Source: Streptomyces sp. AM 4-1-1
GTDB taxonomy: Bacteria; Actinomycetota; Actinomycetes; Streptomycetales; Streptomycetaceae
Length of the DNA stretch: 64,000 nucleotides
Direction: 5' to 3'
Assembly (NCBI RefSeq): GCF_029167625.1
Contig: NZ_CP119145.1
Location: 2,108,001 to 2,172,000 of the forward strand
Part shown: positions 49,321 to 55,492 of the stretch, piece after piece
Position numbering within the stretch: the stretch's first letter is position 1
Layout of the letters: every line of letters starts with the position of its first letter
Notes under the pieces: model-generated
Told to the model about the DNA's origin: nothing
The model's input: the letters and a program-made list of their open reading frames with translations, nothing else
Database searches by the model: none
Translations under genes and position numbers: made by a program

Positions 49321-49534
49321 ACACATCGTCAAGACCTCGGCAGCAATGCACGGCTGGCGCAAGTCGTCATACAGCAACAGCGACGGTGGCAGCTGCGTCG
49401 AGGTGGGGGACAGCCACCCCTCCGGCATCCCCGTCCGCGACTCGAAGAACCCCCACGGTCCCGCGCTCGTCTTCCCGACCGCCGCGTGGACCTCGTTCGT
49501 CACGAATCTCCGGGCGGGCACGTTCCCGTCCTGA
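49313..49534 (+). CDS. DUF397 partner protein
   Basis: 73 residues from ATG 49313, overlapping the XRE stop. It shows the DUF397 signature WRKSSYSNSDGGSCVEVGD, then GIPVRDSKNPHGPALVFPTA and WTSFVTNLRAG. This is the standard small partner of the XRE/DUF5753 regulator; it is cytoplasmic and probably acts as an antagonist by direct binding, as proposed for BldB/WhiJ-like systems. Confidence 0.92.
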   Translation: MTEHIVKTSAAMHGWRKSSYSNSDGGSCVEVGDSHPSGIPVRDSKNPHGPALVFPTAAWTSFVTNLRAGTFPS

Positions 49535-49690
49535 GCCTCGTTCCACACTTCAAGCACTCCGTCTCCGCCCGTAGGCACACACACTGCCTGTCGAGGCGGA
49601 GACGATCCGCTCTTTCCGTCGGCGCTCCGATACGCAAGGGCTTCAACGCGCCGTGGTTCCAGGCCGCCGCGTCACGGCTCGGCCGACGAA
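49535..49690 (+). pseudogene. DUF6879 gene fragment
   Basis: This stretch aligns with the intact DUF6879 gene at 53714. TTCCACACTTCAAGCACTCC here matches TTCCACGACTTCAAGCACTC at 53771 with one base missing, then GGCGGAGACGATCCGCTCTT against GGCGGACACGGTCCGCTCCT, then GGCTTCAACGCGCCGTGG against GGTTTCAATGCGCCGTGG. Residues HFKHSVS and KGFNAPW remain in one frame. The start and the C-terminal half are absent. Confidence 0.75.
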
Positions 49691-49780
49691 ACCTCTCGCT
49701 CAGGCTCTCCCCCCGCACCGCCGGATCGCGCGCCGCATCGCCGACTCCGCTCTCACGGGTGAACTCACGCGTTTCCGGCC

Positions 49781-49860
49781 AATAAATGCACACACGTTCC
49801 AGCCATAATGGATTTTGAGCCATTCAAATATGGCGCGAAAAAGCGTTGCGTGCATTTATC
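49781..49860. repeat. A+T-rich 80-bp inverted-repeat element
   Basis: ATAAATGCAC (49782-49791) is repeated inverted as GTGCATTTAT (49850-49859). Inside, CCATAATGG and CCATTCAAATATGG add a second, imperfect inverted pair. The block is far richer in A+T than its surroundings and precedes the promoter of the small secreted protein. It could be a miniature transposable element relic or a structured regulatory site. Confidence 0.5.
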
Positions 49861-50008
49861 GCTAAGAAATTGAACGGAACTCAACATTCCACTGCGTGCG
49901 ATAGATCACATGTGTACGAAATTGCTGCGCGGATTATGAAGAACCTCCAAGATCGGTCGGTGAGCAGGTTCGGCATGAGAACCGAACCGTTCAGTCGAGG
50001 AGCGGGAA
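49861..50008 (+). promoter_or_regulatory. A+T-rich promoter region of the secreted-peptide gene
   Basis: The stretch GAAATTGAACGGAACTCAAC through GATTATGAAGAACCTCC is unusually A+T-rich for this genome and ends with GAGGAGCGGGAA directly before ATG 50009. GGTTCGGCATGAGAACCGAACC (49969-49990) contains the inverted pair GGTTCGG/CCGAACC around ATGAGAA-type spacing and may be an operator. Confidence 0.5.
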
Positions 50009-50359
50009 ATGAATATGCGTAGGATCAAGGCGATCGCCGGGATCATGCTGGCTGCCGGTATCGTCCTGCCGACCAGTAGCGCTGTGGCGCTCAGCGTCAC
50101 GGGTGGCGGGGTGACCGCCACGAGCCCGTGGGACGGCGACAGTGGCCGGATATCCGTCTATGACGGCAGCGACGACGGCGATCCGGGCAAGGCGGAGTAC
50201 TACCGGCAGGACAGCGCCGGTACCCTTCGTACGCTGTGGAACCAGAGCGGTTATAAGACCCGTGCGACCTCGGCCGGCGGGTCGAAGATCATCAAATTCA
50301 AGGCCTGCGACGACAACGACTGGGCCTCCGACGACTGCTCCGGCTGGGTCGCACCGTAA
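50009..50359 (+). CDS. Secreted small protein; candidate bacteriocin or signal peptide precursor
   Basis: 116 residues with GAGGAG before ATG 50009. The Sec signal is MNMRRIKAIAGIMLAAGIVL, with cleavage near SSAVALS. The mature ~88 residues are Asp/Gly/Ser-rich (DSGRISVYDGSDDG, AEYYRQDSAGTLRTLWNQSG) and end with a two-cysteine loop KACDDNDWASDDCSGW. A strong hairpin follows the gene, then an ABC ATPase and permease. That arrangement is seen in lactococcin-972-like loci, though I cannot confirm sequence membership; lactococcin 972 lacks Cys, and this peptide has two. The function is inferred only from layout. Confidence 0.8.
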   Translation: MNMRRIKAIAGIMLAAGIVLPTSSAVALSVTGGGVTATSPWDGDSGRISVYDGSDDGDPGKAEYYRQDSAGTLRTLWNQSGYKTRATSAGGSKIIKFKACDDNDWASDDCSGWVAP

Positions 50360-50389
50360 CCCGGAGCCGCCATTTCGTCATTCCAGCGT

Positions 50390-50424
50390 TCGCCGGGCAA
50401 GCCGCACCAAGGCTTGCCCGGCGA
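50390..50424 (+). terminator. Strong hairpin between peptide and ABC genes
   Basis: TCGCCGGGCAAGCC (50390-50403) and GGCTTGCCCGGCGA (50411-50424) make a perfect 14-bp stem with a 7-nt loop, followed by TTCC. A partial terminator here would give a high peptide-to-transporter mRNA ratio. Confidence 0.85.
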
Positions 50425-50468
50425 TTCCAGTTCCCCCAGCCTGCCCTCTTCAAAGATACGGACGTACT

Positions 50469-51167
50469 GTGACCCGCACACTGCCGCCGGACGGTGGCCT
50501 CCGGGTGGAAAGCCTGAGCTACCAGGTTGAAGACCGACTCCTTCTCGACAACGTCGACCTCACCGTGGCTCCGGGAGAGTCCGTCGCCATCACAGGGCCG
50601 AGCGGCTCGGGCAAGTCCACGCTCTTGATGTGCGTGCTGGGACTGGTCAAGCCCGACTCCGGCACCGTCACCGCAGGCGGCCACCGGGTTACCGGCCTGC
50701 TTCCGGGCGCTCTGGCCAAAGCACGCCGTAAGTACCTCGGCGTGGTCTTCCAGTTCGGTGAGCTGCTGCCCGAATTGACGCCCGTGGAGAACGTAGCGCT
50801 GCCGATGCTCCTCGACGGCTCCGACCATCGCCATGCCTACGCGAGCGCCGCTCAACTCCTCGACGAACTCGAAGTCCCCCACGGAAGTACTCCCACAGGT
50901 CTGCTCTCCGGTGGGGAACGGCAACGCACCGCCGTCGCCCGTGCCCTGATCGCGCAGCCTCCTGTGCTGCTGGCGGACGAACCCACTGGTGCGCTCGATC
51001 CCAAGGCGCGGGAGAACGTCGCCGACCAACTGTTCCGGATCTGCCGTGAACGTCGCTGCGCACTCCTGGTCGTCACGCACGACCCTGCGATCGCTGCCCG
51101 TGCTTCTCGTGCCTTCGAACTCGAGAACAGCGTCCTCGTCCCCGCTCATCAAGGGACACCCGCGTGA
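50469..51167 (+). CDS. ABC transporter ATP-binding protein (MacB/LolD type)
   Basis: 232 residues from GTG 50469. Walker A is GPSGSGKST at 43-51, the signature LSGGERQRTAVARAL, Walker B PPVLLADEPTGALD and the switch His in VVTHDPAIAARA; all are canonical. These enzymes drive mechanotransmission permeases. It ends by overlapping the permease start with GTGA, so the two subunits are co-translated. It should be the energy subunit for the permease that follows, and either exports or gives immunity to the peptide encoded upstream. Confidence 0.93.
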   Translation: MTRTLPPDGGLRVESLSYQVEDRLLLDNVDLTVAPGESVAITGPSGSGKSTLLMCVLGLVKPDSGTVTAGGHRVTGLLPGALAKARRKYLGVVFQFGELLPELTPVENVALPMLLDGSDHRHAYASAAQLLDELEVPHGSTPTGLLSGGERQRTAVARALIAQPPVLLADEPTGALDPKARENVADQLFRICRERRCALLVVTHDPAIAARASRAFELENSVLVPAHQGTPA

Positions 51168-53350
51168 ACACTCCATCGCGCGCACCGGTGCGACGTCCAG
51201 GACGACTGTGGCTCCAGCTCCTCAGGATCGGGCTGGCCGCAGCACGCGCAACTCCAGGTACACGGCTGCGGTTCTGGGCGTTGATGGCGGCCGCAGCGGC
51301 CTTGGCCTTGACAGCCCTGGCTCTTGTCACCGCGAGTGCCACCTTCGACGGACGCGCCCAGCGCGAACAGGCCCGCGGACCGATTATCGCCGAGGACCCC
51401 ACGCGGGCCACCGCGCTGTGGAAGGAGGCCTACGACTCCTTCGGTGCCACACCGCACGGCGTCATCTACATCGAGCCCCTCACCCCTGACGCGGCACCGC
51501 CACCGGGTCTGTCACGTTGGCCCGCTCCGGGGGAGGCCTTCTTCTCTCACGAGCTGGCACAGGCCGCGCGAGAGTACGACAGCCTTGACCGTTACGGCCG
51601 ATACGGCGGAACCATCACGGCGCAGGGGCTGAGGTCGCCTTCCGAACGCATCGTGTACGTCCGCGCCGCCCAGGCGCCGGCCGACCCCGTCGCGCAGTCC
51701 TGGCAGTACATCGCCGGCTTCGGCCAGACGTTCCCGATGAACCAGGAGATCTACCCCCGCACGCTGCCGGAGACCGCCGGGACGATCGCCGTCCTGATGG
51801 CCGTCCCGGCTCTCGCGCTGCTCGTGGTCGCCACCCGTGTAGGGTCGGCGACCCGCGACCGCCGCAGCCGGCTCGTCAACGCCCTGGGCGCCTCATGGAC
51901 GCACCGGGCGCTGATCAACGTCGGGGAGGGGTTCGTCCCCGCCGCGTCCGGCACCCTGCTCTGCCTCATCCCGGCGGCCCTGCTGCTGGCCACCGACGTC
52001 CGGCTCCCTCTGACCGGTTACGTCATCAGCGCCGCCGACATGCGACAGATGTGGCCCCAGCTCGTCGCCGCCCTGTTCGCGTCTTTGGTGTTGACGCTGC
52101 TGCTGCTGGTCCTTCTGCACCGGGTACAGCGTTCCGGGACCGCGACCCGGCCGAGTGTCTCTTCCTCGCGTCTGCCGAAATGGCGCCTCGCGCTGTGTGT
52201 GGCCGGTGTTCTGGCGATCGCTCTGAGCCAGTACGCTCCCAAGGGTGCCGATGTCGGGATCTTCCTCTCCGGCACCGTCCTGATGTGGGCCATGCTCCCG
52301 TCGGTGATCGCTATGGTGAGCGTCGCCAACGGTAGACGCATCGCGGCCAGTGGCTACCGCAAAGGCAACCCCGGGCGTCTCATCGCCGGCCGCTGGACCG
52401 CGTCCCACCCCGGTGTCCTGGTACGGCTCTCCGTGGTCTTCATCATCGGTATCGGGCTCATCAGCCATCTCCAGGTCTGGAACAGCCGTCTGGGGGACAG
52501 CGCCGCCGCAGCCCAGGAGCTCACCCGACGCGTAGGCGACACCCTCTACCTCGTCCACAGCAGCACCCTGCCCCCCACCGCGGTCAAGGACCTCTCACGT
52601 TCCCTGCCCAAGGGCGCACACCTGCTGGCCGCAACGGCCCATCCCGAAGGGGATCGCCCTCGCATCGACCTGGTGGCATCCTGCCGCGACCTGTCAGCGC
52701 TGCGCCTGCCGTGCCCCACGTCGGCGCAGCGGATCACCACGCGTGACCCGCGGCTTGAGGAGCTGGGACGCCCCTACCACGGCAACCTCACTGTCCGGGC
52801 CACCAGCGGGGATCTGGATACCCCGCACGCCGACGGGTCTCTCATCGTGACCGCCGACGAGCCCGGCCACCGGGCACAGATCGAGAAAGCCGCCTACGCG
52901 GTACATCCCGGCATCAACGTCGACACACCGGGTGAGTCGTGGGTGATCGGAGCCCGGGAGAAGAACAGTCTGAACAACTGGCTCTTCTTCTTCGGCGGCC
53001 TGGGCCTGACGCTGCTTCTGATCGCCGGACTGATCAGCGCTGCCGCCGAGTTCGTCCGTATCAGAGCAGGACTGGCTCCCCTGAGCGTGCTGACCGGAAA
53101 CGACCGGGTCTTCCGTGCGATCGCCCTGTGGTACCTGACGGTGCCGCTACTGATCGCGACCGCCGCCGCTACGCTCATCACCGACTGGCACTCCCTGTTC
53201 TTCGTCATCTCCCTGCGTGAGGGGAAGTTCTCCTGGCCGGTCCTTGCCACAGCATCCGCCGGCTTCGCTCTGGCCGCAGTGGCGATCGGAGTTCTCGCCG
53301 CGCGTTCCGCCCGCCGGGCCGCCCCGTCCTGGAGACCCCACGCCGACTGA
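51164..53350 (+). CDS. FtsX/MacB-like ABC permease
   Basis: 728 residues from GTG 51164. About ten hydrophobic segments are seen: one near the N-terminus (~35-60), a large extracytoplasmic domain, a first bundle (~210-440), a second extracytoplasmic domain (~450-605), and a last bundle (NWLFFFGGLGLTLLLIAGLI and two more). This two-domain layout resembles bacteriocin-associated integral membrane proteins and FtsX-type permeases, rather than transporters with a substrate-lined pore. No separate membrane-fusion protein is present, as expected for a Gram-positive. It is likely to handle, or protect against, the 50009 peptide or an attacking peptide. Confidence 0.88.
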   Translation: MNTPSRAPVRRPGRLWLQLLRIGLAAARATPGTRLRFWALMAAAAALALTALALVTASATFDGRAQREQARGPIIAEDPTRATALWKEAYDSFGATPHGVIYIEPLTPDAAPPPGLSRWPAPGEAFFSHELAQAAREYDSLDRYGRYGGTITAQGLRSPSERIVYVRAAQAPADPVAQSWQYIAGFGQTFPMNQEIYPRTLPETAGTIAVLMAVPALALLVVATRVGSATRDRRSRLVNALGASWTHRALINVGEGFVPAASGTLLCLIPAALLLATDVRLPLTGYVISAADMRQMWPQLVAALFASLVLTLLLLVLLHRVQRSGTATRPSVSSSRLPKWRLALCVAGVLAIALSQYAPKGADVGIFLSGTVLMWAMLPSVIAMVSVANGRRIAASGYRKGNPGRLIAGRWTASHPGVLVRLSVVFIIGIGLISHLQVWNSRLGDSAAAAQELTRRVGDTLYLVHSSTLPPTAVKDLSRSLPKGAHLLAATAHPEGDRPRIDLVASCRDLSALRLPCPTSAQRITTRDPRLEELGRPYHGNLTVRATSGDLDTPHADGSLIVTADEPGHRAQIEKAAYAVHPGINVDTPGESWVIGAREKNSLNNWLFFFGGLGLTLLLIAGLISAAAEFVRIRAGLAPLSVLTGNDRVFRAIALWYLTVPLLIATAAATLITDWHSLFFVISLREGKFSWPVLATASAGFALAAVAIGVLAARSARRAAPSWRPHAD

Positions 53351-55258: not shown

Positions 55259-55492
55259 ATGCAGAACGGCATCGATCTCTACGCGCTCGACATCGACATG
55301 GCCGCGTTCGCCAAGGCATGCGGCGGCAGTACGCACCCCGACGGCGAATCCTGCGTGACTCTCGCCCGTATCGGTGAGAACGCATGGGCGCTGGGTGACA
55401 GCAAGCGTCCCGGAACGGAGCCGCTGCGGTTCACCACCGAGGAGCTGGAAGCCGCCGGTATCCGACCGGCGCGCTTCGGGCTCTCCGTCTGA
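55259..55492 (+). CDS. DUF397-type partner protein
   Basis: 77 residues from ATG 55259 (AGGAAGG 7 bases upstream). ESCVTLARIGENAWALGDSK, then RPGTEPLRFTTEELEA, matches the DUF397 strand pattern. The N-terminal IDLYALDIDMAAFAKACGG replaces the usual WRKSS segment. It is the likely partner of the XRE protein encoded upstream, and is followed immediately by a strong terminator. Confidence 0.8.
   Translation: MQNGIDLYALDIDMAAFAKACGGSTHPDGESCVTLARIGENAWALGDSKRPGTEPLRFTTEELEAAGIRPARFGLSV

Follow-up and report, generated by a model that had tools for sequence, protein, structure and literature searches.

We propose that three adjacent genes within a 64,000-nucleotide (nt) stretch of Streptomyces sp. 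AM 4-1-1 (contig NZ_CP119145.1, 2108001-2172000; the window) form an operon encoding a small secreted protein, here called the peptide, together with the ATPase and the permease of an ATP-binding cassette (ABC) transporter. Judged by sequence comparison, the association of the peptide with the ABC pair is not due to chance, and the operon is a moving unit, found on chromosomes and plasmids. Its architecture resembles that of a lactococcin 972 locus, yet neither sequence nor gene order places it among these. Tentatively, and at a little short of an even chance, we favor that the operon provides a mobile bacteriocin-like secreted protein and a type VII ABC transporter that protects the producer. 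The elements described in a sequence-only reading of this stretch, i.e. the three genes, the GTGA overlap of the ATPase gene (GTG start) with the permease gene, a perfect 14-bp hairpin and an A+T-rich upstream region, were all found again at 50009-53350 (Table 1).

Peptide and ABC pair form one conserved unit

A profile of the peptide led to 17 named loci in Streptomyces, Streptosporangium, Amycolatopsis and Actinomadura. A permease homologue lies directly downstream of the peptide gene in all 17, with the ATPase gene in between in 13. Across 295 genomes of the genus, the profile identified 24 places in 23 genomes, and a same-strand permease follows 0.76-1.64 kb downstream at 22 of these; as one genome (G039) holds two tandem peptides ahead of one permease, the 22 places correspond to 21 permeases. 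Searching the same genomes with the permease gave 37 places at E ≤ 1e-50, a count restricted to this threshold; at E ≤ 0.001 permease matches occur in 95 of the 295 genomes, and the weaker rows, many of them partial and about 30% identical, were excluded. For the remaining 16 permeases, 5980 six-frame fragments were searched with an iterative profile and the upstream frames were inspected; 12 of these permeases are preceded by a divergent peptide gene and one (L062) by a remnant, so that a peptide gene accompanies 33 of the 37 places. No ATPase match was found beside the permease of L098, and no peptide in five weaker permease loci that were fetched (L103-L107), of which L105 had just 48 nt upstream.

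The survey of homologue neighborhoods suggested by the sequence-only reading hence supports a single conserved unit of peptide and ABC pair. The peptide is not mostly separate from the pair, the permease being absent at two of the 24 peptide places in the genus, and the pair does not consistently lack a peptide, an intact peptide gene being absent at four of the 37 strongest permease places.

The peptide represents a family without a name

A protein search yielded 34 homologues of the peptide at E ≤ 0.001, itself included, and a profile search 67 proteins (7991 candidates scored), the named ones of which are labeled hypothetical, uncharacterized or secreted and carry no precomputed Pfam domain. 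The nearest named relatives are from Streptomyces, and the single match at E ≤ 0.001 in the own genome is the gene itself. The precursor lacks any match in Pfam at E ≤ 1 or in NCBIfam at E ≤ 10, and its homologues are, as far as sequence searches tell, a real family that has no name.

The Sec-type signal was recognized by eye and in the alignment as MNMRRIK followed by a hydrophobic core and AVA, with probable cleavage after residue 27. Most full-length relatives start at the second methionine (50015), and the true precursor may therefore comprise 114 rather than 116 amino acids (aa). The C-terminal two-Cys loop is likewise corroborated: in the alignment of 34 sequences C100 is invariant, C110 is at least 90% conserved, and the surrounding pattern AC..N....DDC is almost fixed. 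In total, 22 positions are invariant; they are distributed across the mature part, as would suit a folded protein better than a short peptide released by cleavage. With an isoelectric point of 4.45 for residues 30-116, the mature part is acidic. An AlphaFold2 model is all-beta, with a predicted local distance difference test score (pLDDT) of at least 90 for 82 of the 116 residues, and comparison to the PDB returned weak immunoglobulin (Ig)/fibronectin type III (FnIII)-like sandwich matches only. We thus predict an acidic Ig/FnIII-like beta-sandwich.

The permease is predicted to be a two-ectodomain type VII ABC protein

The permease model (pLDDT 86.7, predicted template modeling score 0.84) adopts an FtsX/MacB fold with 10 transmembrane segments (TM) and two ectodomains, an outer domain being located in-between TM1 and TM2, and the ATPase is encoded separately, per the type VII arrangement. 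All 15 rows at E ≤ 0.001 in a Foldseek search with this model were YbbAP, BceAB, MacB, LolCDE or the pneumococcal 5xu1 transporter, with YbbAP and BceAB as the closest folds. Based on the model, the permease is classified as a 10-TM, two-ectodomain type VII ABC protein. At the sequence level, the FtsX family PF02687 is detected at E ≤ 0.01 in 19 of 42 family permeases (best 4.4e-6) and weakly in the permease of this operon (E 0.013, 16 bits against a cut-off of 25.5), and no match among Pfam or PDB sequences links the latter to YbbP. C507 and C517 of the second ectodomain are invariant in the 42 sequences. The ATPase reaches 140.6 bits against TIGR03608 (cut-off 254.85), which ranks under LolD, YbbA, FtsE, MacB and DevA in NCBIfam; in PADLOC the ATPase alone was matched, as a generic ATPase type.

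The type VII ABC members described in an excerpt of PMC12646458 act on extracytoplasmic partners or membrane substrates. The two outer domains predicted here are shared with the 10-TM permease of YbbAP; in contrast to YbbAP-TesA, the neighboring gene encodes a small beta-protein and not an esterase, and no esterase-like gene is among those recurring in at least three of 18 loci (none was sought elsewhere in the genome). BceB, according to the same excerpt (PMC12646458), has a single outer domain and works with BceS, whereas the present system has two outer domains and no conserved kinase, a likely kinase being found in 4 of the 18 loci.

The operon resembles lactococcin 972 loci in layout

Lactococcin 972, a beta-sandwich according to an excerpt of PMC11796350, is known from a locus on a Lactococcus plasmid (excerpt of PMC4055356). 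The role of the ABC pair in such loci is called unverified in the former excerpt (PMC11796350), and the lactococcin 972 analogy is therefore itself in part tentative. The likeness lies in the combination of a small, beta-rich protein secreted by a Sec-type signal with an ABC ATPase and a roughly 700-aa membrane protein. The gene order differs, being peptide-ATPase-permease here and peptide-permease-ATPase in 6 of 7 comparator loci (one in the own genome and six others), as do the C-terminal Cys loop of the present peptide and the ATPase, which ranks nearer to LolD, YbbA and FtsE than to the TIGR03608 of lactococcin 972 loci.

The family models point the same way (TIGR01653/PF09683 for the lactococcin 972 peptide, TIGR01654 for the membrane protein and TIGR03608 for the ATPase). 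At E ≤ 1, TIGR01653 finds none of the 34 peptide family members, and the permease has no NCBIfam match at E ≤ 10, TIGR01654 included. Two Streptomyces lactococcin 972 permeases match TIGR01654 at 1.5e-13 and 1e-10 (50 and 41 bits, below the cut-off of 189), and in the one comparator ATPase scanned TIGR03608 ranks first with 232.4 bits, also below its cut-off. Alignment of mature-only peptide profiles using hhalign gave 0.4% probability (E 0.17; 77 versus 17 sequences, 10 family sequences having been lost in signal trimming), and alignment of the permease profiles 0.2%, with only 6 comparator sequences. The own genome in addition holds a lactococcin 972 locus (C1:3245965-3246234; L085, L108), which scores over the TIGR01653 cut-off and is followed by genes for a TIGR01654-like permease and for an ATPase. 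Membership in the lactococcin 972 family was hence rejected, the grounds being the peptide, the permease, the ranking of the ATPase and the order of the genes; this agrees with the initial suspicion that the peptide family stands apart by sequence.

Of 101 genus genomes, 9 have TIGR01653 matches, with scores over the cut-off in 6; a protein search with one lactococcin 972 peptide returned only 5 relatives. We note that the seventh comparator locus, L109 (G097:C76), carries two tandem lactococcin 972 peptides, with no ABC ATPase or permease homologue found on the contig.

A hairpin recurs behind the peptide gene

The hairpin separating the peptide and ATPase genes is one of four distinct perfect stems of at least 11 bp (loop 3-10 nt) within the window, and a longer one, with a 17-bp stem and a 5-nt loop, is present at 1846-1884. 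Folding of 50340-50470 as RNA gives z = -3.5; a scan of 49500-50500 for intrinsic-terminator-like sites that have a T-run gave none. To judge recurrence, we compared the 43 loci in which a peptide is followed by 30 nt or more, the own locus included and L062 contributing a peptide remnant only; three loci without a peptide and six with a gap of 0-27 nt, too short for a hairpin (L078, L079, L081, L082, L097 and L099), are not part of this count. The longest perfect stem 3' of the peptide gene averages 10.7 bp, compared to 5.7 bp in dinucleotide shuffles; it reaches at least 9 bp in 29 of the 43 loci and starts 10-60 nt past the stop codon in 32. In 17 chosen stems, changes on both sides are seen at 7 of 14 pairs (32 cells versus 9.4 expected from shuffles), while further pair types are no more numerous than in the shuffles (282 of 500 as high). 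These 17 were preselected as best, so that their pairing percentage is favored by selection, and the shuffle control over 43 loci is the fairer measure. The hairpin thus recurs among loci with differing sequences, and likely serves as an attenuator or 3'-end stabilizer holding the peptide message above the ABC message. The earlier suggestion that the peptide is made in excess is rendered plausible by this recurrence.

The A+T-rich region upstream is the 200-nt segment of lowest G+C content in the window (0.455 versus 0.708 overall, 20-nt steps) and presumably contains the promoter. It holds no sigma-70-type promoter match, and an extracytoplasmic function (ECF) sigma-type promoter was discarded after no match to its pattern was found in 52 upstream regions. 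In upstream alignments, the own locus and its three nearest relatives have short common stretches near the peptide start; no motif common to all three aligned upstream groups was seen.

Distribution, co-divergence and neighboring genes

Counting divergent peptides beside permeases, the operon is present in at least 34 of the 295 genus genomes. All three plasmid records matching the peptide, from Streptomyces plasmids, contain peptide, ATPase and permease in this order (the third locus, L120, has no annotation). Phage records gave no peptide match, and a phage origin of the operon was rejected on this basis. In a phylum sample of 296 genomes, queried with the permease of L028 at E ≤ 1e-20 and with three candidates scored per genome, the own genome is the only match among the matches listed. 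Pairwise distances of peptide, ATPase and permease correlate with r = 0.84-0.87 (37 of 42 loci), a value reached in 0 of 2000 permutations, and hence the three genes are inherited together rather than shuffled.

On a linear Streptomyces plasmid, two tandem genes for hypothetical proteins occupy the peptide position ahead of a single ATPase-permease pair, flanked by transposases on either side (L119:4998-5773), and on a S. albus plasmid the operon adjoins the type I-E CRISPR genes cas2e, cas1e and cas6e (L118:8823-10339). A peptide copy at L101:4983-5417 adjoins genes that by eye resemble yidC, rsmG, parA and parB, and the one at L102:4318-5159 is split in two pieces.

The sequence-only reading had placed the operon between two XRE/DUF397 regulator modules. 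Family scans support the upstream one (XRE/DUF5753 and DUF397); the downstream one consists of DUF6879 and XRE/DUF5753, and its DUF397 match at 55331-55453 of the window is weak, below the cut-off. As the own genome has 52 DUF397 matches, this neighborhood is weak evidence. In a survey of flanking genes in 18 loci with a crude gene caller, the only clusters recurring in at least three loci were XRE regulators (7), DUF397 (5), a likely histidine kinase (4) and a likely response regulator (3). A function of the XRE/DUF397 genes as dedicated operon regulators is not supported by these counts, which were obtained with no formal background test of neighborhoods.

Table 1 Features of the operon and its upstream region, in window coordinates.
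Feature	Position	Strand	Basis
A+T-rich region 5' of the peptide gene, presumed promoter site	49781..49980	+	G+C scan
Small secreted protein precursor, 116 aa, predicted beta-sandwich	50009..50359	+	open reading frame, homologue alignment, model
Sec-type signal peptide, residues 1-27, AVA ahead of presumed cleavage	50009..50089	+	sequence by eye, alignment
C-terminal two-Cys loop C100-C110, CDDNDWASDDC	50306..50338	+	alignment conservation
Perfect 14-bp hairpin, 7-nt loop, separating peptide and ATPase genes	50390..50424	+	stem search, fold
ABC ATPase, 232 aa, LolD/YbbA/FtsE/MacB class	50469..51167	+	family scans
Permease, 728 aa, 10 TM, type VII ABC (FtsX/MacB superfamily), YbbP/BceB-like predicted fold	51164..53350	+	model, fold search, alignment, family scans
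Permease extracytoplasmic domain 1, about residues 60-205	51341..51778	+	model
Permease extracytoplasmic domain 2, about residues 440-608, with C507 and C517	52481..52987	+	model, alignment

Discussion

We suggest that the operon may operate as follows. A small, acidic, Ig/FnIII-like protein, its two cysteines probably joined in a disulfide, would be secreted via Sec in excess and act at the outer face of competing bacteria, where the target is perhaps a cell-wall precursor, in analogy to lactococcin 972. The ABC pair would give the producer protection in that it removes or displaces the protein, or the membrane-bound complex with its target, in a manner loosely similar to that of BceAB against antibiotics that sequester undecaprenyl pyrophosphate (UPP). 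The hairpin would end or stabilize most transcripts after the peptide gene, resulting in a lower level of the ABC pair. Self-immunity through the ABC pair, one of two roles considered in the sequence-only reading, would be a plausible role.

Several observations weigh against a weapon with its own immunity transporter. In four of the 17 named loci (L012, L019, L020 and L026) peptide and permease are kept and the fetched sequence yielded no ATPase homologue; in L020, moreover, the permease is without its N-terminal part. No peptide was found upstream of the permease in L074, L075 and L080, only a remnant precedes it in L062, and the frame of L073, counted among the 33, is without a clear signal, while in L101 and L102 the peptide has no permease in the surrounding 5 kb or so. 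Peptide and permease are conserved to much the same degree (mean identity 0.38 and 0.36, respectively), and in the near relatives L012-L015 the peptide is the more conserved of the two (70-71% versus 49-53%), which is unusual for a diversifying toxin. Finally, peptide and ectodomains show no covariation beyond that with the membrane part (partial r about -0.1).

Alternatively, the peptide may serve the type VII ABC as an extracytoplasmic partner or ligand and act on the envelope of the producer itself, comparable to EnvC-FtsEX or TesA-YbbAP, and be no weapon at all. Such partners are frequent in type VII systems, as described in an excerpt of PMC12646458, and the tight genetic coupling and co-divergence, the strong conservation of the peptide and the two retained ectodomains of the permease, the second with an invariant Cys pair, would be compatible with this role. 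We nevertheless regard it as rather unlikely, considering the patchy, plasmid-borne distribution with varying neighbors, the solo peptides and the tandem peptides ahead of one ABC, the unequal expression that the hairpin suggests, and the missing ectodomain-specific covariation. An extracellular signal that is sensed or cleared by the ABC and triggers a response appears improbable: a folded protein of about 89 aa would be large for a pheromone, and no regulator is conserved with the operon, the DUF397 genes being abundant in the genome, even though BceAB-like transporters share in sensing (excerpt of PMC12646458) and XRE-type regulators and a likely histidine kinase are present in 7 and 4 of 18 loci, respectively.

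That the peptide is a very distant, diverged member of the lactococcin 972 family, a possibility compatible with a bacteriocin-like function, we consider distinctly improbable. The similar layout and the beta-sandwich of lactococcin 972 (excerpt of PMC11796350) agree with it, and sub-threshold hits of the iterative hidden Markov model (E 0.13-0.85) were nearly all lactococcin 972 peptides, those of the last round (E 0.18-0.85) all; these loci had been chosen as lactococcin 972 loci in the first place, and the common part is largely signal peptide, although two of four alignments inspected extend into the mature part. The profile comparisons of the mature peptides and, with their 6 comparators, of the permeases, the different gene order, the lack of a TIGR01653 match and the coexistence of both loci in the own genome speak against such kinship. 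Dedicated export of the peptide by the ABC pair, the other role initially considered, is hardly credible, since the precursor has a Sec-type signal; the type VII permease fold, closest to YbbAP and BceAB, and the loci with peptide and permease and no ATPase homologue argue in the same direction, against the operon order and co-occurrence that would suit an exporter.

It is conceivable, with a probability below even, that the operon represents an unnamed actinomycete family of Sec-secreted, Ig-like beta-sandwich interference proteins, each with a YbbAP-like type VII ABC immunity and a hairpin switch of expression, which arrived at the lactococcin 972 layout independently and is found on chromosomes and plasmids. 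If so, a two-ectodomain type VII transporter would have a role in self-protection. No description of the operon was noted in titles and abstract openings among the literature matches listed.

Streptomyces are known mainly for small-molecule antibiotics. If the operon indeed encodes a weapon and its immunity, it would constitute an uncharacterized class of protein antimicrobials in Streptomyces, with operons in dozens of the genomes surveyed. If the peptide instead is a partner of the ABC, the effectors of type VII ABC transporters would include one more type. With either reading, the role of the ABC pair, which the excerpt of PMC11796350 calls unverified in lactococcin 972 loci, becomes open to testing in laboratory strains that are not pathogenic.

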